Source: a virus. Taken from it: DNA of 21,912 nucleotides. The position numbers were made by a program, and so were the translations under genes. Location: positions 1-21,912 of the IMG/VR virus record IMGVR_UViG_3300049919_000419; one strand, given 5' to 3'. How positions within the stretch are numbered: position 1 is the stretch's first letter; each line of letters begins with the position of its first letter. This document shows positions 2,799 to 20,815 of the stretch, in pieces. Below the pieces are notes generated by a model, which was given only the letters and a program-made list of their open reading frames with translations, searched no databases and was not told the origin of the DNA.

Positions 2799-4388
2799 TT
2801 AGTAAGTTGCGTTTTGATCCGTCCAAGCGGCACGGATGGTGAAAGATAATTGATGTAGGTCGCGGTCGCTCTGGGTGATGCCGTCGAGGCTTTTGGGTTC
2901 TACGATTACCCGGAGGAAGCGCTTGTTTTCGATGTCGCAGAGCCAAGCATCGGACAAGGGGAGTTGGCGCAAGTGCTGAAGGTAGAAGTCGGAGTCGTAG
3001 AGGCCGGTGTTGGCTTCCCAGCGCGGGACGCTGCTGGTGGCCAATCGGCGCTTGGTGGGCTGTCCGGCTTCGCGGGCATCGGTAGAGCCGGGCCAGCGCA
3101 CGGTTTCGTAGGTCTCGCCTACGTTGTCGGCGCCCATCGTCTGCTTGCCGAATAAGCGGACAGTCTCCATGCCCCCTACCCCGTTCGAGACGAGCAGGTA
3201 CATCGGCGACCATGCGTAGGTAAGCGAATCTACGCCGTAGCGGACGGTCAGCCAGTAGGTGCCGGGTGCGTCGGTCTGCTCCAAGCGCCAGTCGTAGGCG
3301 ACGATGTACGAGCCTGCGGCGGTCGGCCCGGTGATGGGGGCTTGGTATAGTTTCGATTGCCGATAGCCGGAAGCGAACAGGTAGGGGGTGTCCTGCACGG
3401 GCGTGAGGCTGTTGGCCGTGAACGGGAAAAAGGTCGAGGTGGTGCCGTCTGACCAATACACGAGGATAGAAATTTTCACGGCCTCCCCGGTGGTGTTGGC
3501 GAGCCAATACACCCAATCCGGCTGCGTCGCATCGACGGGCTTTCGGAATTCGGCCTTGTCGCGGCGCAGGTAGTTGTGCAGCAAGCGGGTGACGGTGCCC
3601 GGCGTGAGCGTGTCGGCGCTGCGACCGCCCAAAATAGCAAGGTAGTCGCCACTGCGGATAAGCGCCTCGGCGGTTGGCGGTTGGCCGTACTTATCGGCTG
3701 TGCGGAGGTGGTACTTCTGTGCGCTCTTGGTCACCACCTCGGAGGTGAACGCGGGCGTAGTGGGCGCGATGCTGGTAGTAGGCGGCAAGTGCGGCACCAA
3801 GCCCGCGAAGGCGGGCGAGATGTCCACGATGGCATCGGTATCCGACACATCGTAAGGGGCATGGAGGCGCGACAAGCGGCTATCGGCAGACAAGTTTGCG
3901 CCGGTCGCCCATACCTCGATCAGGGCGCGAAGATTGGCTTGCAAGTAGGCGCCGGTGATGTTGTTGGGGGTGATGGTGATGTTGGTGCAGTTTTCGGTGG
4001 CGCTGGCCGTGATCGGCTCGACGCTCCGATAGGTTAAGCGGATCACCCGCGAGGTGCTTACGTTTGCTTCGCGGGTAATGAGGAAGGCATTGGAAACGGT
4101 CTCTTGCTCGCGCAGCGCGGCGGCAATGTAGTCGGCATAGACGTCGATGCCCATCGCGCCTTTCACCTCGATGTCGAGGGGGCTGGCGGTGTTGGTGGTC
4201 ACGAAGGTGAATTGCACGGAGTTGGTCAGCCATACCAGAGTGAATTGCTGCCCTGCGGTGGGGCCGGTACCTACAACCAAGATGTCGAAATATGGCGGTG
4301 CCGAGTTGATCTGATCGGTGCTGACCTCGACGTAGATTGGTTCTTGCGAGAACGCGATGGCGGGTGGCGGTGTGGCTAACGTAATCAT
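2799..4388 (-). CDS. Large tail-like structural protein, 529 aa
   Basis: The chosen start is ATG 4388 (MITLATPPPAIAFSQEPIYV). The open frame continues upstream to 4598, but only through palindromic repeats that are clearly intergenic. The protein is beta-rich with many Thr, Val and aromatic residues. It has an N-terminal segment reading FSQEPIYVEVSTDQINSAPP, a central segment with SGDYLAILGGRSAD near residue 250, and a C-terminal segment around LPLSDAWLCDIENKRFLRVI. No signal peptide or membrane segment is seen. The pattern fits the large tail, baseplate or receptor-contact proteins of Bacteroidota phages, but no exact family can be named from the sequence. It heads the tight cluster 4388-616 and lies 208 bp downstream of a terminator, so it needs a promoter I could not identify. 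Confidence 0.75.
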   Translation of the reverse strand: MITLATPPPAIAFSQEPIYVEVSTDQINSAPPYFDILVVGTGPTAGQQFTLVWLTNSVQFTFVTTNTASPLDIEVKGAMGIDVYADYIAAALREQETVSNAFLITREANVSTSRVIRLTYRSVEPITASATENCTNITITPNNITGAYLQANLRALIEVWATGANLSADSRLSRLHAPYDVSDTDAIVDISPAFAGLVPHLPPTTSIAPTTPAFTSEVVTKSAQKYHLRTADKYGQPPTAEALIRSGDYLAILGGRSADTLTPGTVTRLLHNYLRRDKAEFRKPVDATQPDWVYWLANTTGEAVKISILVYWSDGTTSTFFPFTANSLTPVQDTPYLFASGYRQSKLYQAPITGPTAAGSYIVAYDWRLEQTDAPGTYWLTVRYGVDSLTYAWSPMYLLVSNGVGGMETVRLFGKQTMGADNVGETYETVRWPGSTDAREAGQPTKRRLATSSVPRWEANTGLYDSDFYLQHLRQLPLSDAWLCDIENKRFLRVIVEPKSLDGITQSDRDLHQLSFTIRAAWTDQNATY

Positions 4389-4467: not shown

Positions 4468-4584
4468 CGTTTTGTCATCCCGTTAGGGAACCGTCCATGG
4501 CGTGTAGGGCGTGGACGGTTTCCTAACGCAATGACAAAAAAAACGAGGCGTGGACGGTTTCCTAACGGGATGACAAAAAAAACG
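4468..4584. repeat. Dispersed palindromic repeat, one and a half units
   Basis: The left arm (4468-4497, with TTTTGTCATCCCGTTAGGGA) and right arm (4512-4545, with TCCTAACGCAATGACAAAAA) form a long near-perfect hairpin. A second copy of the right arm follows at 4548-4584. Related copies lie at 4994-5018, 6207-6290 and 11858-11901, all outside protein-coding genes. The shared core is TGGACGG, 0-2 nt, TTCCTnnCG, 2-3 nt, ATGACAAAAA. A short CCCCTAAAGGGG palindrome at 4447-4458 precedes it. This looks like a REP- or MITE-like element; no transposase is in the window. Confidence 0.8.
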
Positions 4585-4595
4585 CAGCGCACAAA

Positions 4596-4633
4596 CAAAA
4601 AATCGGCCTCCCCGCACGTTAGCGGAGAGGCCG
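4596..4633 (-). terminator. Strong intrinsic terminator, leftward
   Basis: Arms 4604-4615 and 4622-4633 (CGGCCTC-C-CCGC against GCGG-A-GAGGCCG) form a 12-position GC-rich stem with one C/A mismatch and a 6-nt loop. On the minus strand it is followed by six T residues. It separates the ncRNA-like region from the tail operon. Confidence 0.75.
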
Positions 4634-4767
4634 GTTGAACATATAATTATAACCCCATGTGCTTGACTGGGGCAAAAAAAACGGCTGGAAGCTGTGCCCC
4701 CAACCGTCAAACCCCAAAAACCGTTGCGAAGGTATGGAGTATTTTTGTCTTTCCGGAAGAAAGGGGC
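4634..4767. other. Intergenic spacer, no gene seen
   Basis: This stretch lies between the two leftward terminators. It holds a second poly-A/T tract (4673-4680) next to a weak hairpin and a degenerate -7-like sequence (TACCTTCG on the minus strand) without a matching -33 element. Nothing in it looks coding. Confidence 0.5.
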
Positions 4768-4795
4768 AAAAAAAACGCTCACTTTCCAGCGAGCG
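4768..4795 (-). terminator. Intrinsic terminator closing the putative ncRNA
   Basis: On the minus strand, CGCTCGC (4795-4789), loop TGGAAA and GTGAGCG (4782-4776) pair over 7 bp including one G-U, followed directly by eight T residues (4775-4768). This is a textbook Rho-independent terminator. It lies about 280 nt downstream of the promoter at 5054-5084, with no gene between. Confidence 0.85.
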
Positions 4796-4993
4796 GAACA
4801 ATAAACGAAAAACCAAATGAAAACAATGTCTTGTGTTTGGGTGGTGGACTCCCCACCCTTCTTTCTTGAAGCACACCCTCGTCGGTTCGAGGCATCGGCG
4901 GTTGTCCTTCCCGCTTAGCGGCTCTCGCCGCCGGGCCCTTCTTAGTGTCTTAATAGCCCGCTGCCAGCGTGGAGAATGGGTTAGAAATGCAAA

Positions 4994-5018
4994 AGTTCCC
5001 TGACGGGATGACAAAAAT
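4994..5018. repeat. Partial copy of the dispersed palindromic repeat
   Basis: AGTTCCCTGACGGGATGACA followed by AAAAT matches the right arm of the 4468-4584 element. It sits in the loop of the first hairpin of the putative ncRNA, so the repeat may have inserted into an RNA gene or been recruited by it. Confidence 0.65.
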
Positions 5019-5053
5019 GTCGCAATCCGGTGCTGGCAGCGGGTTTTGTTGTG

Positions 5054-5084
5054 CAAAGATAGTGGTTTTATTTTTCACACCAAA
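5054..5084 (-). promoter_or_regulatory. Bacteroidota-type promoter of the putative ncRNA
   Basis: On the minus strand TTTG (5081-5084), a 19-nt spacer and TATCTTTG (5054-5061) match the -33/-7 consensus exactly. Expected start is near 5048-5050. No start codon with a credible protein follows. Confidence 0.75.
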
Positions 5085-5116: not shown

Positions 5117-5164
5117 GATATACGCTATCGTGTACTGATAGAGTAGTACATCGTAGCGTATATC
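5117..5164. repeat. Long hairpin between the 65-aa gene and the ncRNA promoter
   Basis: Perfect 11-bp arms (GATATACGCTA 5117-5127; TAGCGTATATC 5154-5164) continue, after a symmetric 3-nt internal loop, into a further 6-bp stem (TGTACT/AGTACA) with an 8-nt apex. There is no T-run on either side, so it is not a standard terminator. It could block read-through from the gene ending at 5181 or bind a protein. Confidence 0.75.
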
Positions 5165-5180
5165 CAAGAGTTCTCGGAAA

Positions 5181-5378
5181 TTAAGTAAATGGAATACTAT
5201 CTAAACCAAGTTCAGCCTCAACCAACCGCTCGACTTTTCTTAATTCATTTTGCACGGCTTCGTGCAAAATGGCATCAAGCCGCAAATTATGCTCCTCGCA
5301 AAATATGCGTTTTTGGTAATGAAACTCGTGTCTTTCACGAATTTTTTTCAGCAATTGAGTTCCAATTTTTTGCCTCAT
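5181..5378 (-). CDS. Small protein, 65 aa, function unknown
   Basis: The start is placed at ATG 5378 (MRQKIGTQLLKKIRERHEFH). The frame upstream of it crosses a GC-rich hairpin and is not protein-like. The product is highly charged and probably all-helical: a Lys/Arg-rich N-terminal helix followed by LRLDAILHEAVQNELRKVER and an acidic C-terminus. The last part could form a short amphipathic or coiled-coil helix. It lies alone between two hairpin elements (5117-5164 and 5405-5471), downstream of the accessory cluster. No family recognised. Moderate confidence that it is translated. Confidence 0.5.
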   Translation of the reverse strand: MRQKIGTQLLKKIRERHEFHYQKRIFCEEHNLRLDAILHEAVQNELRKVERLVEAELGLDSIPFT

Positions 5379-5404
5379 AATAAATATAAAATTCCGAGAA
5401 CAAT

Positions 5405-5480
5405 GGCTTCCCGGCCATGCCCGCCAATGGCCTAACGCAAAGCCAAACGCGGCGGTCACAGGCGGGAAGCCCAGAGTTAG
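5405..5480. repeat. Nested GC-rich inverted repeat, weakly attC-like
   Basis: GGCTTCCCG (5405-5413) pairs with CGGGAAGCC (5463-5471), and CCGCC (5421-5425) pairs with GGCGG (5451-5455) inside it. On the minus strand the segment from GTTAG/CTAAC at 5476-5480 to GTTAGGC at 5430-5436 has the box spacing of a short integron attC site, but the inner boxes pair poorly. It overlaps the stop codon of the 85-aa gene. It may simply act as a terminator-like hairpin for that operon. Confidence 0.6.
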
Positions 5481-5734
5481 CGCGTATTTTGTGCCTCGAT
5501 TTCTTTCAAGGCGGTTAGAAAATCTTTGTACGTGGTGAGCAGCCGACAGGAGTCTGGGCAACAGCCCCACCCTATTATGCGCTCGGTTATTGTTTTGGCT
5601 TCTTGGTAGCCCAGCCATAAGGCCAACTCCGAGAACTTACAATCCGAGTAGCCTTGCTCTCGGTATATCGCCTTAGATGGGTCGGGCTGCATGGCTTGGA
5701 TTTTTTGTATAGCGGTGGCTGGATCGGTGGTCAT
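5477..5734 (-). CDS. Small accessory phage protein, 85 aa
   Basis: It starts at ATG 5734, overlapping the stop of the preceding gene as ATGA (5731-5734), which indicates translational coupling. The product (MTTDPATAIQKIQAMQPDPS...) has a central segment ELALWLGYQEAKTITERIIG, a Cys pair in GWGCCPDSC, and a C-terminal helix. The central segment could be a degenerate helix-turn-helix, but I do not assign a family. It is the last gene of a short operon with the 153-aa gene. Confidence 0.6.
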   Translation of the reverse strand: MTTDPATAIQKIQAMQPDPSKAIYREQGYSDCKFSELALWLGYQEAKTITERIIGWGCCPDSCRLLTTYKDFLTALKEIEAQNTR

Positions 5735-6192
5735 GGCGTAGAAGCGGGTTGTGGTGATCTCATTCCGTGCAAGTACTCTTGGTAGGTAATCTGGGTGAGG
5801 TCGGGGTTGATCGTGTCCGGGGCCTCGATGTAAAATGTGCCGTTGCGGAGGGCTACGCCGGGGATTTGCATCTCATTGCCGTTTTGGATGATGGCGACGA
5901 TCTCGCTGTTGAGGACGACCGGCAAGCCTTTTATCTCGGCGATTTTCGCGTAGTTGCTTACGGTGTTTTTGGGGAAGTAGCACCCGGGGAATACCTGTTT
6001 CCAGAGTCCCGGCTTTAGTGGCAGCATGAAGGCCGAGATGCCACCAGCGGCATTCAGCACGCTGCGGAAGATGACGCTGGCGCCGTAGCGCTTGCCGATT
6101 TCGACGGCTGCAAGGTTGGCCACCCGGCAGCGCTCGAAAAGGTCGAGGAGTTTGGAGTGGGTATCGGATTCTTTCTTTACTTTGTAGTACAT
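5731..6192 (-). CDS. Accessory phage protein, 153 aa, function unknown
   Basis: It starts at ATG 6192 (MYYKVKKESDTHSKLLDLFE). The protein is mixed alpha/beta with a glycine-rich centre (SVLNAAGGISAFMLPLKPGL) and a C-terminal segment ALRNGTFYIEAPDTINPDLT. No signal peptide or membrane segment is present. Similar-sized proteins occur in the early/accessory region of Bacteroidota phages, but I cannot name a family. It is coupled to the 85-aa gene downstream by a 4-bp overlap. It is separated from the PUA-like gene upstream by 128 bp holding a palindromic repeat, so transcription may be attenuated or restarted there. Confidence 0.65.
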   Translation of the reverse strand: MYYKVKKESDTHSKLLDLFERCRVANLAAVEIGKRYGASVIFRSVLNAAGGISAFMLPLKPGLWKQVFPGCYFPKNTVSNYAKIAEIKGLPVVLNSEIVAIIQNGNEMQIPGVALRNGTFYIEAPDTINPDLTQITYQEYLHGMRSPQPASTP

Positions 6193-6206: not shown

Positions 6207-6290
6207 GTTGTCATCCCGTTTTTTGTCATTCCGGTAGGAATCTGTCCGGGTGTGAGGTGTGGACGGGTTCCTGCGGAATGACAAAAAAAA
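6207..6290. repeat. Dispersed palindromic repeat, full hairpin copy
   Basis: The left arm 6219-6247 (TTTTTTGTCATTCCGGTAGG...) and right arm 6261-6290 (GGACGGGTTCCTGCGGAATG...) form a long hairpin of the same family as 4468-4584. It is preceded by a truncated extra arm (6207-6220). On the minus strand the hairpin is flanked by poly-T, so it could also terminate transcription from the gene ending at 6321. Confidence 0.8.
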
Positions 6291-6320
6291 TGAGATGGCA
6301 AACGAGATGAAAAAATATTG

Positions 6321-7677: not shown

Positions 7678-10600
7678 CTACCCTATTTTTGGGTAGGAGG
7701 TTGCATCGAAGTCCTCGTCGGCGACCAGCAGATATTCGGTGCCGGAAATCTTCAGTCGGCCATCCGTGCCGTGTACGGGGTTGAATTTCAGTTTTGCATA
7801 CTTGCAATACTGCTCCACCTTTTCCTTGAGCCGCTTGGCGTTCAGGTAGTTCTTATCCGCCGGGAACTGTTGTAGGTAGTCGGTCAGGATGCGCGTTTTG
7901 GCGACGGCCTTGTTGCGGTAGCAGCCGGAGGTGTCGTCGGTGGCCATGCCGAATGGGCTGTAGGCCTCTTCGGACTTGGCGAAATAGACCTCCGCAAACT
8001 CCAAGAAGTTTTCCCCTATCTGCTGGCGCAGTTTCCTGCGCTCGATGTCGCCTTTCGGGATGGTGTACTTGTTCAGGTCGCTGTAGCGCAGATACACCTG
8101 CGCACAGGTGGCGATGAAATTGTAGTACATATTCCAATCCTGCCATTCCCAGTCCGCAAACATGTTATGTCCAAACATGTCGCGGGGCGTGCGCTGCCCG
8201 TTGAAGTAGTCGGAAAAGGCAATCTGGTACTGGCGACGGGTGAAACTATTGCCTTCGCCGTTGAGCATGTGGTTGGTGACCACCCAGATCGGCACAGGTG
8301 CGACGCGGTAGGCTTTCACGCCTTTGCCGTTCACCTCGATGCCGGTGGTGATCTTGGAAAACAACCACTCGAAATTGAAATTGACGCGGGTATCGTCGAA
8401 GATGATGGCGCCGGTACGGTCGTCCACTCCCTCGAAGGCGTGTTTGTCTTCTTCGAGGTTTGGTTTCTTTCCATCCACCACGAACGTGGGGAATACGTTC
8501 TGGAACTGGGTGGCGACAATTGATTTGCCCGTGCCGCCTTGTGACTTCCCTACTGCGCTCTCTTGGCCGTCCATCGCAATGATGGCCTTCATCTGTGAAA
8601 GGTCGCGGAAAGGCTGCAAGGTGTAGCCGATAGCCAGCATCTTGCAGACAAGGTGGGTTTTCAACTGTTCCAACTCGTCAGTGGTATATTTTTCGGGATG
8701 GTCGCGGCTGATCCAGCGGTCGTTGCCGTCTTCATCCTTAGCCAATACATCCCGCTTGCGCCACCAAAAGTCGGAGGTGGCCAGCAAAAACTGGTAGAAC
8801 TCGCAGTCAGAGGTTTTGGCCTCTTTGCCTGCGTTGGAGAACTTCACCTCTTTCACGCCCCACGTTTCTTCGTGCTGCCCTTTGACGCGGCTCACCTCCA
8901 GCATTGGTTTCCCGATGTACGTCGGCTCAAACGGGATGATCTTAGACTCCCAAATATTTTTTTCGATGTCGGTGAGCGGGTGCTGCTCGATGCCGTCGGC
9001 GGTGATCTTCCAGTAGCCGTTGCGGAAAACCAGCGTTACCGCGTCGCGCTCCGGTGCAAGGAACTCGGGCGAAGAGTACCACAAGTTACCCAACTGGTTA
9101 GGGCCGAGATATTGGGTGCCGCCGCGCAGTAGCATGTTCAGCACATCAATCCTTCCCAACTCCTCGGTGAAGTTTTTGAAGAACTGTTGGATTTTATGGG
9201 GCGTGACTTCCCGCACGATCTTGTTTTCCGTGCGGATCATCCTATACTGGTCTTTTGCAAACTCATATAGGTGAAAGCCGCGATTGCGCAGGAAAACAAG
9301 TGATTGGTAGTAGTTGAAGGATAGTTCGGTTTTCACCCTCCCACCCCGCTCTACTTCGTTCTCTGTCCAGAACTGTTCGTGGGGCAAAATCTTTTCCACC
9401 ATTTCGGGCAGCCCCTCCTCATTGATCCGGTACCGGAGGCCCTTCACCTTAAACTCCTTGCGGGTGGCAAGGGTTTTCAGGTGCTTTTTCAAAAATTCCT
9501 GCGTGTTGTGCAGATTCCATAGTTCCAGCAGTTTGTGTTCACTTACCGTGGTAACGTTCATGGCGCCTACATACGTGCCTTGTCCGTCGCGGGCGATCAT
9601 GGAGGATTCAACGTCGGCCATCAGCCCTGCCTCTTGGCCTTTCAATTGGCGGGTCAGTAGGTCGTCCATGCCCTTGTGGGCTTGATCTTTGCCGTACATG
9701 AACCAGATGTTCAGTTCCAGCCCGCTATTTTTGTAGGCGTAGAAGTAATCGCGGAACTTCTTGAGCGCCGAAAAAAACGACCGCGGTCGGAAGTCCACGT
9801 CTTCGCCTTTGCCTATATCCTGCCAGTCGCTATCCACTACGAACGCCACATTTTTGACGCCGCACTTCTTGATGATCTGCTCAAACTGCGAGGTCATGGC
9901 CTCATAATTCAGGTTATTGATGCCCATCAGCCCGGTGGTCATCATGCCCGAATTCGTCATTTTGTCGGCTTTCTTTTCGCCTTCTGATACGAAAAGCGTG
10001 TCGAACTGTACGCCACCCGCGTAGGCTTTCAGCAAACCCTGCGGCAGCCATAGGGCGCTTGGAGAGCCGAATGGGCTGCGGTATTTCACGGGCTTGCCGT
10101 CGCGGTCGAGGTGCAGTGCTGGATTGGCGTAGCGCACCCGGACAAGGTTGCGGACGTGGCCTTGTTTGTTGCGCCACTGCATCGGCTGCCCATCGAGGCC
10201 GAGGTAGTTTAGCACCATGTCGTCGCCGGCAATGACCTTGCCGTAGGTGTCGAAACTGCCCACCTCGTAGCGGTCGCGCTCGACGGTCTTAGTTGCATCA
10301 ACCTTCTCCATCCACTTCTGATCGGCCAGCGCAATGCCAGATTCGAGCAATTGTAAGTCACGAAACTTTTTAGCCTGTGCGCCTGGTATCCTTGCTGCCC
10401 TTTCTTCCAGCGTAGGGATTTCGATGTGGTATTTTTGGGCGAGATAGTTTAAGGCGGTCGGGTAATCGTAGTTCTGGGTGACGGTCAGGAAGGTCACAGC
10501 CCCGACCCCGTGCGCGTCGCACCCATTCATGAAGCACTTGAATAGGTTTTTTGGTTCGTTGATGGAGAACTTGCCCTGCGACATACAGAGCGGGCAGTTG

Positions 10601-10719
10601 CCTACGTAGTCTTTCCCCTTCTTTTTGATCTCTGGCAGGTACTCCTGCGCCACGTCAAGGAGGCTGGCAGCATCCTTGATTTTTTCGGCAATTTCGTCTG
10701 GTATATAGTTCTGTGACAT
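7678..10719 (-). CDS. Primase-helicase (CHC2 zinc finger, TOPRIM, SF3-type ATPase), 1013 aa
   Basis: This is the phage replication protein that primes and unwinds DNA at the fork. The start is ATG 10719 (MSQNYIPDEIAEKIKDAASL); the upstream in-frame codons are not protein-like. A CHC2-type zinc finger is seen at residues 42-70 (CPLC...KCFMNGCDAHG). A TOPRIM core follows at about 240-300 (FVSEGEKK with E246, then VVDSD with D296 and D298). The C-terminal ATPase has Walker A at 726-733 (SQGGTGKS) and Walker B at 771-776 (AIIFDD). It also has the ITTGIEVNGKGVK and WVVTNHML segments expected of superfamily 3 or D5-like helicases. It is preceded at 67 nt by a small gene and followed by a terminator and the iteron cluster. 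Primases with this domain order are typical of Bacteroidota phages. Function is inferred with high confidence. Confidence 0.92.
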   Translation of the reverse strand: MSQNYIPDEIAEKIKDAASLLDVAQEYLPEIKKKGKDYVGNCPLCMSQGKFSINEPKNLFKCFMNGCDAHGVGAVTFLTVTQNYDYPTALNYLAQKYHIEIPTLEERAARIPGAQAKKFRDLQLLESGIALADQKWMEKVDATKTVERDRYEVGSFDTYGKVIAGDDMVLNYLGLDGQPMQWRNKQGHVRNLVRVRYANPALHLDRDGKPVKYRSPFGSPSALWLPQGLLKAYAGGVQFDTLFVSEGEKKADKMTNSGMMTTGLMGINNLNYEAMTSQFEQIIKKCGVKNVAFVVDSDWQDIGKGEDVDFRPRSFFSALKKFRDYFYAYKNSGLELNIWFMYGKDQAHKGMDDLLTRQLKGQEAGLMADVESSMIARDGQGTYVGAMNVTTVSEHKLLELWNLHNTQEFLKKHLKTLATRKEFKVKGLRYRINEEGLPEMVEKILPHEQFWTENEVERGGRVKTELSFNYYQSLVFLRNRGFHLYEFAKDQYRMIRTENKIVREVTPHKIQQFFKNFTEELGRIDVLNMLLRGGTQYLGPNQLGNLWYSSPEFLAPERDAVTLVFRNGYWKITADGIEQHPLTDIEKNIWESKIIPFEPTYIGKPMLEVSRVKGQHEETWGVKEVKFSNAGKEAKTSDCEFYQFLLATSDFWWRKRDVLAKDEDGNDRWISRDHPEKYTTDELEQLKTHLVCKMLAIGYTLQPFRDLSQMKAIIAMDGQESAVGKSQGGTGKSIVATQFQNVFPTFVVDGKKPNLEEDKHAFEGVDDRTGAIIFDDTRVNFNFEWLFSKITTGIEVNGKGVKAYRVAPVPIWVVTNHMLNGEGNSFTRRQYQIAFSDYFNGQRTPRDMFGHNMFADWEWQDWNMYYNFIATCAQVYLRYSDLNKYTIPKGDIERRKLRQQIGENFLEFAEVYFAKSEEAYSPFGMATDDTSGCYRNKAVAKTRILTDYLQQFPADKNYLNAKRLKEKVEQYCKYAKLKFNPVHGTDGRLKISGTEYLLVADEDFDATSYPKIG

Positions 10720-11857: not shown

Positions 11858-11901
11858 TGTGGACGGATCCCTAACGGGATGACAAGCGCAATGACAAAAA
11901 A
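11858..11901. repeat. Dispersed palindromic repeat, right-arm copy
   Basis: TGTGGACGGATCCCTAACGG followed by GATGACA, then AATGACAAAAAA, matches the right arm of the repeats at 4468-4584 and 6207-6290. Here it carries a partial duplication of its ATGACA end. Confidence 0.7.
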
Positions 11902-14560: not shown

Positions 14561-14640
14561 AAATTGTACTAAAAAAATGCTGTATCTTGCTTCAAAGGTA
14601 GGAGCATAAAAATGTAATTTGCAAATTTTTAGTACAATTT
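14561..14640. promoter_or_regulatory. Divergent operator region with 15-bp inverted sites
   Basis: AAATTGTACTAAAAA (14561-14575) and TTTTTAGTACAATTT (14626-14640) are perfect inverted copies that bracket the leftward promoter: one just downstream of its expected start, one just upstream of its -33 element. A partial third copy (ACTAAAAA, 14645-14652) lies nearer the repressor start. The whole 14526-14679 region is AT-rich. A looping or competing repressor/Cro mechanism is likely. Confidence 0.75.
14593..14625 (-). promoter_or_regulatory. Leftward early promoter
   Basis: On the minus strand TTTG (14622-14625), a 21-nt spacer and TACCTTTG (14593-14600) match the Bacteroidota consensus. Expected start is near 14586, about 60 nt before the Cro-like ATG. 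No equally good promoter is visible for the rightward repressor gene. Confidence 0.7.
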
Positions 14641-14679
14641 TTTTACTAAAAATTTTGACATAATTCTATCTTATTGGTA

Positions 14680-15153
14680 ATGAAACGATTAGGAGAAAAT
14701 TTAAAATTAGTACTTAAGCGATTTGACTGGTCTGCTGACGATTTTGGCCGTCGGTTGGGCATGGGCAGAGGTGCGGCAAAAAACTGGGTACTTGAAAAAT
14801 CTGAACCTAGCTTAGACAAATTAATACAGATCGAGCGGATGACGGGCGTAGGGATAAGCCGCCTTGTATTTGGGGAGATGGATTTCTACGAGTTGCCGCT
14901 GGAGCCGCTGCCCGGGTGGCGTGAGGCGACAACGGTATCGGATGAACTGCTGGCAGTCGCTGAAGATGCTCCTGCATACGTGCCTCCTGCTCCTGAAGCC
15001 TTGCCGCTTGCTGCTGCGCTGGTGGACATATCGGCGCTGGTGGCGGAGGTGGCTGCACTGCGTGCTGATCGGGAAAGGGATCGGGGCAGGATAGAGGAGT
15101 TGGAGGGGCTGGTGATGGGGCTGATGAAGGCTTCTGTACCTCCGAACACATGA
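14680..15153 (+). CDS. Helix-turn-helix phage repressor with C-terminal coiled coil, 157 aa
   Basis: The start is ATG 14680 (MKRLGENLKLVLKRFDWSAD); a TTG two codons upstream is possible but less likely. Residues 3-60 form an HTH_3/XRE-type domain: DDFGRRLGMGRGAAKNWVLE contains the turn and recognition helix, followed by SEPSLDKLIQIERMTGVGIS. A Pro/Ala-rich linker follows. The C-terminal coiled coil (LVAEVAALRADRERDRGRIE...) probably mediates dimerisation. There is no S24 peptidase domain, so induction would not go through classical RecA-stimulated self-cleavage. It is divergent from the Cro-like gene across the operator region and heads the lysogeny module (repressor, exonuclease remnant, integrase). 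Confidence 0.8.
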   Translation: MKRLGENLKLVLKRFDWSADDFGRRLGMGRGAAKNWVLEKSEPSLDKLIQIERMTGVGISRLVFGEMDFYELPLEPLPGWREATTVSDELLAVAEDAPAYVPPAPEALPLAAALVDISALVAEVAALRADRERDRGRIEELEGLVMGLMKASVPPNT

Positions 15154-15656: not shown

Positions 15657-15895
15657 TAGGTCTGCCGAAACTCTGCCAGTGGGCATATATGCGGGTGAAT
15701 AGTCTGGATGAACTGTGCGTTTTCGGGGTGGAAACGGCGGTTTTTTTAGGCGCAAGTGGGGGATAGGGGAGGGTGTGTAGTCCCGCCTCCCGCACTTTTT
15801 TAACCTATTTTACCCGCGTACATGCTTAATAATCAAGCATTTACGCGGGTTTTTTATTTTTTTGGAAACCGATTATTGGCAGACTTTTGGGCAGA
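15618..15895. other. Putative attP region with integrase arm-type sites
   Basis: TTGGCAGGGTTTTGGGCAAA (15618-15637) and TTGGCAGACTTTTGGGCAGA (15876-15895) match at 17 of 20 positions in direct orientation. A third, inverted, slightly shorter copy is at 15661-15678 (TGGCAGAGTTTCGGCAGA on the minus strand). They flank the terminator immediately upstream of the integrase, where arm-type binding sites and the attachment core of a temperate phage are expected. The core itself cannot be fixed without the host junctions. No gene is seen in 15575-15919. Confidence 0.45.
15812..15860 (+). terminator. Very strong intrinsic terminator upstream of the integrase
   Basis: ACCCGCGTACATGCTT (15812-15827) and AAGCATTTACGCGGGT (15835-15850) form a 16-position stem with one mismatch and a 7-nt loop, followed by TTTTTATTTT. 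It ends the repressor/remnant transcript. The integrase must be read from a promoter in 15861-15919, where none is obvious, or by read-through. Confidence 0.9.
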
Positions 15896-15919
15896 GTTCA
15901 CAACTCAACCAAAAAAAAA

Positions 15920-17068
15920 ATGTCCAAACACGAACAAACAAACGAAATCAGATTGGTCAGGGGCAAGATATGGTACATCGAATACCATGCTCCGAACCGC
16001 CGCAGGGTGACGTTCGATATGAATCGAGCGAAATACAAGAAAGACCCTGCCGCACGCGAGGCGTATGCCTTGCAGAAATTAGCCGAGATACAGAAAGATT
16101 TGGCTCCTGCGCCGAAAAGCGCCAAACCGGTCACGGTGTTGGAGGCCATGGACATGGCCCTGGGGCTGAAATTGAAGTCCGACCGCGAGTACACGCATAG
16201 CACGTACCGCTCGCAGCACGGGATTTTCTGCACGTACCTAAGAGAAAAGGGGATGGGGGATTTGCCCGCCACTGCGTTCACCAAGCAGATGGCCATGAAG
16301 TATCTGGATTGGGTGCTGCTCGAAAAACCGACGAAGGCCGGAAAAGGGGTGAGCAATCGCACCTATAATAATTACATTACGAATCACCGGGCCTTATGGA
16401 CGGAGGTTGTCAATCGGGAAATAGTGCCGAAAAATCCGTTCTCGAAAATTTCGGAACGCAAGGCCGAGCAGAAAAAGCGCATCGTTATTGATGCCGACGA
16501 GCGGGATGTAATTATTGCCGATGTGTACGAGGCACACAAGCCGCTTTTCCTGTCGATTATCTTACTGACCTATTGCATGATCCGGATTGCCGAAATGCGC
16601 CGGCTGCGTTTCTGCGATATTGATCTGGAAACGGGCGTGATTTCGATGTCGGGCAGCCAAACGAAAAACAGGGAAATTGGGGTGGTGACAATCCCTGCGG
16701 ATATTATACAGGTAATCGCGCCTTACGTTGAGGCGCAGCCGCCGCGCTGGTTGATTTTCGGCGAGTATTGCAAGCCGCATCCAACTAAGCCGTGTGGCCG
16801 CAATACGCTCACGTGGCAGTTTCGAGAGCATCTTATCCGACTTGAGAAAGCGGGGAAAATTAGAAGCAGGGTAGGGTATTCGCTCTATTCATGGAAGGAT
16901 ACGGGCGGCATGGCGATGGTGAAAGCGGGACTGGATATTATTACCATCCAATCCCACTTTCGGCATAAGGACTTGGGGACGACGCAAGTATATCTTCAAT
17001 CGCTTGGCGTGGTGAAGAAAGATATAAGGGCGTTGCCTTCGACTGTTTTCAAGTTGCCCTTAGAATAG
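15920..17068 (+). CDS. int: Tyrosine-family phage integrase, 382 aa
   Basis: It integrates and excises the phage by site-specific recombination. The start is ATG 15920 (MSKHEQTNEIRLVRGKIWYI), right after a run of ten A residues; an upstream in-frame ATG at 15887 is less likely. Residues 8-65 form an arm-binding-like domain, 70-175 the core-binding domain, and 185-370 the catalytic domain. Catalytic residues are R212 (CMIRIAEMRRLR), K239 (SQTKNRE), H339 (SHFRHKDLGTTQVY) and the nucleophile Y348. Box II, normally HxxR, reads YSWK (313-316), so Lys316 replaces the second Arg, and D317 occupies the next position. The length is normal for the family. Its 3' end overlaps the convergent DUF6712-like gene by 9 bp. 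Confidence 0.93.
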   Translation: MSKHEQTNEIRLVRGKIWYIEYHAPNRRRVTFDMNRAKYKKDPAAREAYALQKLAEIQKDLAPAPKSAKPVTVLEAMDMALGLKLKSDREYTHSTYRSQHGIFCTYLREKGMGDLPATAFTKQMAMKYLDWVLLEKPTKAGKGVSNRTYNNYITNHRALWTEVVNREIVPKNPFSKISERKAEQKKRIVIDADERDVIIADVYEAHKPLFLSIILLTYCMIRIAEMRRLRFCDIDLETGVISMSGSQTKNREIGVVTIPADIIQVIAPYVEAQPPRWLIFGEYCKPHPTKPCGRNTLTWQFREHLIRLEKAGKIRSRVGYSLYSWKDTGGMAMVKAGLDIITIQSHFRHKDLGTTQVYLQSLGVVKKDIRALPSTVFKLPLE

Positions 17069-18242: not shown

Positions 18243-19718
18243 TTAACGACTATACGCTGACATGGCGGGGCGCATACCTTGCTTAGCCCTTAGCCCATAC
18301 TTTTGGCTGATGTAGTAGTCAACCGTATCGGTGAAGTGCGGCGCATGTTCTTGCGAGAACAATCTGTCGCGCTCCTTCCCCTTGTCTTTCTTATACTCTT
18401 CTGTGACTTTGGTCACCTGCATGGCTATCATCATGTCCTTGCAGGTGATTTCATTGATCCGAAGGATAGGGTGATGCGGGTTGGTTTCCCCTAACACCTC
18501 ATTCATCTCGGTGTTCCTTTCTTTATGCTGCTTCTCTTGTATCCTTCCGACACGTATCTCGACGCGCCAGCCCTTCGCTTCGAAATGGCGCTTGATCTGC
18601 GAGTATAGTGTTTCTGTCGTGTCGGCCTTGGGATCGTGGCCACGTGGCTCCCCCCATATGCGTACCAACTTGGCCTCGTGGTTACGGTAGTGCGAGATGA
18701 TCTTATCACACAGTTCCGCAATCTTCCCTTCGTCTGCCTTGACGAAGAATTGGTGCAGACAGAACTCGTACTGCCTCCCGGCTGCCTTGCGCCCTTGCCA
18801 AGCGCTGGAGCAGTTGAACCAACCCGAAAAATCGAACGATAGGTCGAGCAACTCTTTCGGGTTGTAGTTAGGGTCGGCCACGCCGTTGGTGATGATCCCG
18901 CGATCCCCTTCGCCGTATAGGTACTGCACGGTGTAGCCGTGTATATCAGGATTGAACCGATGATAGAACGGGCGCTCTGCCCGCTTAATCCGCTTGTTGA
19001 GTACTTCTACGAGGTACTCAAGATAGGGCAATTCCGCCTCCAAGCCCTTGAGGTAGTCTTCGCCAAGCACCTCGACATTGTCCCACGCGCTCGCTTCGAT
19101 GAAGGCATACATGGCAGGGTTGGCCTTCGCCTTCTCCTCGAAGTCGAGTATCCAATACCCGGATGGCTTCCAGGGTATTGAGGTGTACAGGTTCACGTTG
19201 CGATATAGATCGCTTGTGAACTTATGCCGGAAGCCGCGAACCGAAGGCAGCAACACTTTCGTGTAATGCTCCTTGTGTACCAGGGCCGCCTCGTCCACAT
19301 CTCCGGCGCAATAGGAGCCGCCTCGGGCCAAGTCGGGACGGTCGAGGCTGAGGCACTCGATTGCCGAGCCTTGCCATAGGCTCAGGATGTTTTCGTATTT
19401 TCGAGACGGCTGATAGGGTAGGGCGAAGTGTGCAGGCGGCTTTTTCCCTACGACGTAGTGCTTCCCTTCCTTCAGCCCGAACTCATTAAGTTTGCCCTCG
19501 ATGGCGGGAAGCGTTTTAGTAAGGATTTGGTTGTACGTTGTTGAAGACAAGAAAATTTTGCCCCTGGGCAGTTCCCTGATGCGCATATACATCTGCCCGG
19601 CGATTACCGTCGATTTCCCCGCTGCGCGACCAGCAAGAAAAGTCTTGTACTGCTGCCGGGCTTGGAGGAATGCTAACTGCTTAGGATTCCAGTAGATCTT
19701 CCTCGACGATTTCTGCAT
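18243..19718 (-). CDS. terL: Phage terminase large subunit, 491 aa
   Basis: This is the ATP-driven DNA packaging motor and nuclease. The start is ATG 19718 (MQKSSRKIYWNPKQLAFLQA). Walker A is at residues 29-37 (AGRAAGKST) and Walker B near 138-143 (AGDVDE). The C-terminal RNase H-like nuclease has its first acidic residue in LDLSFDFSGW (D296) and a late acidic motif FTDTVDYYISQKYG near the C-terminus. Length is typical. The start overlaps the end of the HTH gene by 38 bp, so the two are translationally linked. Here the terminase lies downstream of the portal in the operon, the reverse of the usual order. Confidence 0.93.
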   Translation of the reverse strand: MQKSSRKIYWNPKQLAFLQARQQYKTFLAGRAAGKSTVIAGQMYMRIRELPRGKIFLSSTTYNQILTKTLPAIEGKLNEFGLKEGKHYVVGKKPPAHFALPYQPSRKYENILSLWQGSAIECLSLDRPDLARGGSYCAGDVDEAALVHKEHYTKVLLPSVRGFRHKFTSDLYRNVNLYTSIPWKPSGYWILDFEEKAKANPAMYAFIEASAWDNVEVLGEDYLKGLEAELPYLEYLVEVLNKRIKRAERPFYHRFNPDIHGYTVQYLYGEGDRGIITNGVADPNYNPKELLDLSFDFSGWFNCSSAWQGRKAAGRQYEFCLHQFFVKADEGKIAELCDKIISHYRNHEAKLVRIWGEPRGHDPKADTTETLYSQIKRHFEAKGWRVEIRVGRIQEKQHKERNTEMNEVLGETNPHHPILRINEITCKDMMIAMQVTKVTEEYKKDKGKERDRLFSQEHAPHFTDTVDYYISQKYGLRAKQGMRPAMSAYSR

Positions 19719-20220: not shown

Positions 20221-20815
20221 GTGATCTGTATAGGATTAGGTCAGCGAGGCGAGCCTCGGCGGCCTTGATTTTTTCAGTTTTTTCGGGGCTGTCCGGCGCG
20301 ATGGCCAAGTCGCGCAGCCGCTTTTTCTCCGCGCTTATTGAGGCCCGTATGCTGTTCAGTTTTTTCAGGAGTGCGACCGGATCGGTCGGCAGCGGGTATT
20401 TCTCGTCGCTTATTTCCGCCTCATGCTCGCCGGTCGCCTCGAAGTGCTCCATCTTGCGCTTCAGGGCAAGAAACTCCTGCCACATCGCCTGTATCTTGCT
20501 ATTCACAACGAGCCTTTCGGCGTCGGTTTTGCAGTCATGGTAGCGGTTGCGCTCCTTGCGCATCGCTACATACAGAGATGCTTTTTCCTTGTTCAGCCAC
20601 CGATACCGCTCATCGGTATGCTCGACTTCGCGTGCATCAAGCGGGGCGTCTCCGTTGTGAGCCGTTTTTTCGGCGGTTTTCAGCAGCCGGATGGCTTGCC
20701 TGAGCAGTAGGCGACCGGTGGGCGTGTTTCCCTCCGACATCGTTGCCAGTCCCGCGTAATCAGGCAGCGCGGTCTTGATGTGCGCGAGGTGTTTTTCGTA
20801 CTCTACGTTGGTCAT
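20177..20815 (-). CDS. Helical phage protein, 212 aa, function unknown
   Basis: The start is ATG 20815, overlapping the portal stop as ATGA (20812-20815). The protein is almost entirely helical and highly charged, with probable coiled coils around residues 90-130 (SKIQAMWQEFLALKRKMEHF) and 150-200 (RASISAEKKRLRDLAIAPDS, then EKIKAAEARLADLILYRSHA). No enzyme motif or signal is seen. It lies between the portal and the small terminase candidate and may be a scaffold or packaging accessory protein. Tight coupling on both sides makes it a sound gene call. Confidence 0.75.
   Translation of the reverse strand: MTNVEYEKHLAHIKTALPDYAGLATMSEGNTPTGRLLLRQAIRLLKTAEKTAHNGDAPLDAREVEHTDERYRWLNKEKASLYVAMRKERNRYHDCKTDAERLVVNSKIQAMWQEFLALKRKMEHFEATGEHEAEISDEKYPLPTDPVALLKKLNSIRASISAEKKRLRDLAIAPDSPEKTEKIKAAEARLADLILYRSHAERAIENNSLQRD

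Follow-up and report, generated by a model that had tools for sequence, protein, structure and literature searches.

What does a temperate phage make from some 280 nt of its DNA that lie between a promoter and a terminator and hold no credible protein? The original prediction for this locus was an undescribed structured RNA, and it kept several roles in play: a phage-encoded regulator, a decoy or packaging RNA, or the RNA part of a mobile element. We have followed the question from the locus to the chromosomes of the host family and to other phages. The part of the RNA that recurs turns out to be a short segment at its 3' end.

The phage and its locus

The window, by which we mean the whole stretch of DNA analysed, is a 21.9-kb linear IMG/VR contig of a temperate phage. 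Its landmark genes are these:

7678-10719: primase
14674-15153: CI-like repressor
15887-17068: tyrosine integrase
18243-19718: terminase TerL

Relatives of the window terminase occur in Saprospiraceae MAGs, and the phage is a phage of Saprospiraceae bacteria. Two IMG/VR contigs from two other samples (L009 and L010) carry proteins identical to those of the window's terminase region, so the phage is not a one-off. The transcript of interest, RNA1, is on the minus strand, with small early genes on one side and on the other a tail-type gene whose start is at 4388. Used as bait in IMG/VR, the window's gene neighbours (the tail gene and 5731-6192) brought up nothing. Among the TerL relatives compared, mostly fragments, the closest lack the RNA unit, an absence that is weak evidence against the reading of RNA1 preferred below.

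The surroundings have features of their own. Just upstream of the RNA1 promoter, at about 5117-5168, is a near-perfect palindrome (ATATACGCTACGATGTACT...AGTACACGATAGCGTATAT), a possible operator or site of recombination. The intergenic stretch at 5394-5480, rich in GC and able to form hairpins, is followed by a 65-aa ORF (5181-5378) with non-coding-like codon usage (-0.39). A dispersed repeat of the GTCATCCCGTTAGGGAAC type, also present in Saprospiraceae genomes, recurs at 4470-4579 (inverted), 6213-6293, 11868-11885 and 5011-5033, the last copy falling within the loop that the 12-bp stem listed below closes. MicroRNA-type Rfam matches at 4471-4578 are false; they fall on inverted repeats and score below the gathering threshold.

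A promoter, a terminator and no protein

The elements of RNA1 and its immediate flanks are as follows:

5054-5084, minus strand: RNA1 promoter of the Bacteroidota sigma-A type, TTTG (5084-5081), N19, TATCTTTG (5061-5054)
4768-5049, minus strand: RNA1, a predicted 282-nt non-coding transcript, from its promoter and terminator bounds, fold and codon usage
5032-5043, minus strand: 5' arm, CCCGCTGCCAGC, of a 12-bp long-range stem in the predicted fold
4957-4968, minus strand: 3' arm, GCTGGCAGCGGG, of the same stem in the predicted fold
4918-4931, minus strand: GCGGC-GAGA-GCCGC hairpin, from sequence and predicted fold
4768-4795, minus strand: T1, intrinsic terminator of RNA1, stem 4795-4776, then T8
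4597-4633, minus strand: T3, third intrinsic terminator, stem 4633-4604, then T6, with ATGGGGTTATAATTATATG before it

The transcription signals stand where they had been predicted. The promoter occupies exactly 5054-5084, and over the whole minus strand of the window the pattern TTTG-N17..22-TAnnTTTG occurs three times, against 0.11 expected from Markov-simulated sequence; another of the three, at 14600, faces away from the repressor. The terminator called at 4768-4795 is confirmed, with a stem of -13.2 kcal/mol, as is the second one called at 4596-4633. Terminator-like sites in the region number 11, compared with 4.4 +/- 2.5 in shuffles. The structural elements of the prediction also hold: 5043-5032 and 4968-4957 pair as the 12-bp stem, and the hairpin is present at 4931-4918. 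At -102.1 kcal/mol the 282-nt fold lies well below 200 dinucleotide shuffles (-85.1 +/- 5.0 kcal/mol; z -3.4), none of which is as good, and the 5' domain folded alone gives z -3.6.

The claim that no credible protein is encoded here holds as well. The sole long ORF (145 aa, 5056-4619) scores -0.305 bits/codon, which is non-coding-like, against +0.085 to +0.308 for eight phage genes in a leave-one-out comparison, and Pfam and PHROG searches gave no match; on both counts we reject a protein-coding reading of RNA1. As for known RNAs, no Rfam covariance model (6S RNA included) overlaps 4768-5049 at E <= 5, in keeping with the prediction that no standard RNA would be recognised. The wider interval has one weak Rfam match, Ref55, over the last terminator (4596-4651, E 0.26, below the gathering score). 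ARAGORN finds 0 tRNA or tmRNA genes in the window.

A short segment that recurs

When 4768-5049 was searched for in phage and genome collections, the 3' motif alone recurred. Neither blastn of whole RNA1 against phages and plasmids nor exact RNA1 core patterns in IMG/VR and GTDB genomes found a relative of the 5' domain, and blastn of RNA1 in 398 Saprospiraceae genomes found no true relative. The best whole-RNA1 matches were to the dispersed GTCATCCCG-type repeat within the loop closed by the 12-bp stem and are not relatives of the 5' domain. Because that domain has no homologue, its stems have no covariation evidence. What recurs had been overlooked by the original prediction:

4806-4827, minus strand: conserved family motif ATTGTTTTCATTTGGTTTTTCG, found by blastn, nhmmer and model R1, 10 nt before T1

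In each of three Saprospiraceae genomes the best blastn match to RNA1 was to positions 230-249 of the query, a 20-nt segment shortly before the terminator, and in the matches inspected a terminator lay directly behind the 20-nt motif. The exact 25-nt host form, TTTTCATTTGGTTTTTTGGGGTTAT, is present in 89 of 199 Saprospiraceae genomes, while the reversed-pattern control gave 0. In a 296-genome sample of the phylum the same form appeared in four genomes, three of which (G014, G022 and G044) are Saprospiraceae draws; the fourth looks unrelated. A related motif pattern in a 247-genome sample of the class appeared in three genomes, all drawn as Saprospiraceae members. Within these Bacteroidota samples, then, the motif core is almost nowhere outside Saprospiraceae.

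Invariance inside a search pattern is a product of selection by that pattern, and so the case for a family is built from other things: conservation in the flanks, the place before a terminator, recurrence in many genomes and profiles that exclude the window. Bases outside the pattern are conserved (the preceding G and T in 37 of 38, GGGGTT following), and the terminator stems behind the motif differ in sequence yet pair. Some host copies have CAAUUGG or CAUUUUG for CAUUUGG. An nhmmer profile built from 69 sequences, with the window left out, has its best match in the window at 4831-4806 (E 2.1e-5), the next best having E 3.9. RNAalifold on the mixed host and phage core gave no consensus pair, because the hairpins start at different offsets, and model R1 is therefore a sequence-only Infernal model (35 members, window excluded; its E-values are rough). 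Its first-ranked match in the window is RNA1 itself, at 4830-4769 (E 8.5e-7); a match at 20270-20326 on the plus strand (E 0.002) is antisense to an apparent coding gene and is probably due to chance.

The family can be defined, as far as sequence goes, by a near-invariant (AUU)GUUUUCAUUUGGUUUUUUGGGGUU standing some 4-12 nt, and in well-resolved members 5-12 nt, before an intrinsic terminator; its core is GUUUUCAUUUGGUUUUUUGGGGUUAU plus the terminator hairpin, and the gaps of 0-1 in a few entries are artefacts of extra folding. RNA1 has the segment, a terminator gap of 10 nt, which is inside the family's range, and its own upstream promoter, TTTG-N19-TATCTTTG. Its motif reads ATTGTTTTCATTTGGTTTTT-CG: the first 20 nt are identical to the host/phage consensus, and the GGGG half is absent. 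It is well supported by these comparisons that RNA1 is a phage-borne member of a putative small-RNA family that the Rfam copy searched does not contain. The non-coding phage RNA of the original prediction, with a promoter and terminator of its own, survives and is still undescribed; the stress on its folded 5' domain does not survive, as the searches turned up no homologue of it. Nor is the unit a phage orphan: Saprospiraceae chromosomes and other phages have members of its family too.

The chromosomal copies

In Saprospiraceae chromosomes (loci L067-L096 and L144-L170) the copies are stand-alone intergenic genes, many of them divergent from radA, whose protein (MAK-K--F-C--CG--SPKW-GKCP-CGEWNT) we recognised by eye. 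Each host genome has 1-5 copies; tandem copies occur in L074 and L146, and three in G096. An ECF-like promoter, TGTGAC-N13..18-CGTC, lies upstream of 19 members, and the other scorable ones have a sigma-A-type box. Of 47 loci, 29 have a convergent gene downstream of the host small RNA and 18 a co-directional one, and with so many convergent neighbours we reject an attenuator or leader reading of the host units. An Rfam scan of seven host loci found no entry.

A second unit next door

The original prediction also passed over a middle terminator (4708-4680) that, with a promoter-like box and a second conserved motif, makes up a second small unit:

4727-4734, minus strand: promoter-like box of RNA2, TACCTTCG, a -7 element only, with no clear TTTG upstream
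4673-4722, minus strand: RNA2, about 50 nt, GGTTTTTGGGGTTT (4722-4709), then hairpin T2 (4708-4680) and a T-run

The order is TACCTTCG, CAAC, GGTTTTTGGGGTTT, hairpin, T-run. The predicted fold has z -4.4, and model R1 ranks this place second in the window (4720-4675, E 4.7e-4). The two RNAs divide the motif between them, RNA1 keeping only the first half and RNA2 only the second. Three phage loci, L254, L276 and L277, have a similarly minimal form, with next to nothing between promoter and motif, and the layout of the RNA2 box is that of TATCTTTGTAAC-GG in L254 and TACATTTGTAAC-GG in L276. The minimal form with ACGG is absent from 150 Saprospiraceae genomes. From its sequence, RNA2 looks like a minimal second member of the family just downstream of RNA1.

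Copies in other phages

IMG/VR yielded 32 stretches with the motif and a T-run, about 20 of them distinct and convincing, the remainder being duplicates or coding-like matches. In most phage members a TAnnTTTG (sigma-A-type) box precedes the motif by 8 to about 315 nt. Their 5' parts are mostly unrelated, run from 2 to 300 nt and include tRNAs. In L098 and L123 the promoter abuts the motif (8 nt); in L117 two tRNA genes (2923-3109) precede it. Directly before the motif in L110 (3152-3231) and L112 (about 3915-3992) are degenerate tRNA-like folds. In L117, L110 and L112, processing could release the motif RNA as a tRNA trailer.

Where do these units sit? The terminases they follow belong to at least three PHROG families: phrog_979 (L102, L112), phrog_9 (L109) and phrog_2 (L117). 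Portal genes follow the unit in L117 and L119, and in L105 the unit stands before the portal. The stretch between terminase and portal is a place where RNA units insert repeatedly. Others are elsewhere, after the integrase in L125 and before the terminase in L123. As a tally of positions, the unit is found after TerL and/or before the portal, with unrelated terminases, in L102, L109, L112, L117, L119, L126, L105 and L116.

One could draw these strands together, tentatively and with more doubt than conviction, in a wider picture. A portable 3' module, the 25-nt segment plus terminator, would circulate between Saprospiraceae chromosomes (many copies there with ECF-type promoters) and unrelated phages, fused to interchangeable 5' parts (a bare promoter, tRNAs or structured domains). 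Phages would keep it as an RNA moron, often between terminase and portal, and with it tap one host post-transcriptional circuit.

What might the RNA do?

In two small RNAs of Bacteroides, GibS and FopS, a long single-stranded seed is conserved and a terminator is present; they base-pair at start regions, repressing translation (PMC7366714, PMC11697453). That RNA1 is a free-standing, trans-acting small RNA of a temperate Saprospiraceae phage, pairing with translation-start regions as FopS and GibS do, is a reading to which we give an even chance. Among the roles first put forward, a phage-encoded regulator fits best. We infer that the 3' module would do the work, with the 5' domain as an exchangeable cap or carrier. 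Acting in trans, the module would serve as an extended seed for the translation-initiation regions in mRNAs of host or phage and lower their translation, as FopS and GibS do in Bacteroides. Because phage copies have sigma-A-type promoters and many host copies an ECF-like one, the phage copy would impose this regulation without the host's stress signal. The near-invariant 3' segment found in hosts and in many unrelated phages suggests that these phages may borrow a host RNA regulator.

The target-pairing mechanism, drawn by analogy with the Bacteroides RNAs, is weakly supported. The complement of the motif, AACCCCAAAAAACCAAAUGAAAAC, resembles the start-codon context of Bacteroidota, and in the start regions of G140, a host that has the small RNA, the upstream side is rich in A, AC precedes AUG and AAA follows it. 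Predicted motif duplexes below -16 kcal/mol form at 172 of 791 G140 start regions, compared with 77 +/- 26 for shuffled motifs and 118 +/- 30 for shuffles that keep CAU; one of 40 CAU-keeping shuffles reaches 172, and over these the excess is weak. An antisense search at start codons found no near-perfect match at a real gene start among the sites inspected. The CAAUUGG and CAUUUUG variants alter the start-codon complement and count against pairing, and the GGGG half missing from RNA1 counts against this explanation too. Folding-based accessibility, which did not predict the motif to be especially unpaired, is uninformative.

The main rival is titration. As a decoy or sponge, the phage RNA would bind a protein or mRNA partner of the chromosomal small RNA and so relieve host regulation. 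We think this unlikely, and it has points on its side: the host motif is shared but the promoter class differs and the 5' domains are unrelated, each of the window's two RNAs keeps one motif half, and the E. coli prophage anti-sRNAs AgvB and AsxR are a precedent (PMC4104026). Many phage copies with the whole motif fit mimicry equally well, however. Less likely than titration are a generic 3'-end cassette and a cis-acting leader. Motif and hairpin might form a stabilising or protein-binding terminator cassette, with the function of RNA1 in its 5' domain; the module behind two tRNA genes in L117, the mostly unrelated 5' domains and a motif close before the terminator in well-resolved members all suit such a cassette. 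We hold it to be improbable, given that 1-5 copies per host genome are too few for a general terminator, that L098, L123, L254 and L276 have almost no 5' domain and that the window's own 5' domain has no relative.

A cis-acting leader, exerting attenuator or antitermination control over the tail operon from 4388, has in its favour that RNA1 stands between early genes and a tail gene, shares their strand and comes with three consecutive terminators. It is quite improbable nonetheless: the next gene is oppositely oriented at 29 of the 47 host loci, phages carry the unit at several places in the genome, and the related phage L028 has no RNA unit at the syntenic place before its homologous tail gene. 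Might the promoter-like box, the three hairpins and a U-rich match simply be neighbours by chance? The motif is indeed U-rich and 20 nt long, and the 5' domain has no homologue, but profile matches with E-values of 1e-5 to 1e-6 where one expects them, ahead of a terminator, a second unit adjoining, three promoters against 0.11 expected and the exact host form in 89 of 199 Saprospiraceae genomes make coincidence very improbable indeed. Two of the roles first suggested lose ground as well. A packaging RNA of the phi29 type is unlikely, with the family on host chromosomes and RNA1 far from TerL (18243-19718), and the RNA part of a mobile element is not supported, since beside RNA1 we recognised neither a reverse transcriptase nor a transposase.

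Comparison with known systems

Our preferred reading, a trans-acting regulator shared between host and phage, gives a concrete, searchable definition of a Saprospiraceae small-RNA family, with phage copies under other promoters. A literature search found no Saprospiraceae small RNA of this kind. A family conserved in host and phage is a handle on how Bacteroidota small RNAs find their targets and how phages enter host RNA networks. Phage morons are autonomous promoter-gene-terminator units between phage genes, and the classical ones encode proteins. The present units resemble them in being inserted between phage genes, repeatedly between TerL and portal, and differ in encoding an RNA.

AgvB and AsxR of enterohaemorrhagic E. 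coli offer a likeness of another sort, being prophage small RNAs that act on the host's small-RNA network, but theirs is an Hfq-dependent system of Enterobacteria (PMC4104026). GibS likewise has a long conserved segment and a terminal terminator; its segment is unstructured and pairs with translation-initiation regions (PMC7366714). It is, however, a single 145-nt gene of Bacteroides with a 5' seed and measured targets (PMC7366714), whereas the pairing proposed here is predicted.

FopS, too, is a multicopy Bacteroidota family in which a conserved stretch is followed by an intrinsic terminator, with sigma-A promoters and copies on chromosomes and in phage (PMC11697453). It is reported to act by base-pairing around start codons (PMC11697453). 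FopS belongs to Bacteroidaceae, has 12-15 copies per genome and keeps its conserved seed at the 5' end (PMC11697453); the present family belongs to Saprospiraceae, has 1-5 copies and keeps its conserved stretch at the 3' end, with variable 5' domains and many ECF-like host promoters. It is by its published description, not by sequence, that FopS is set apart here: Rfam scans of the window and the host loci gave no FopS or GibS match, and the Rfam copy searched may lack a FopS model. FopS of Bacteroides thetaiotaomicron has itself been seen in a phage (PMC11697453), and the present family suggests that this published case from a single Bacteroides phage may belong to something broader.
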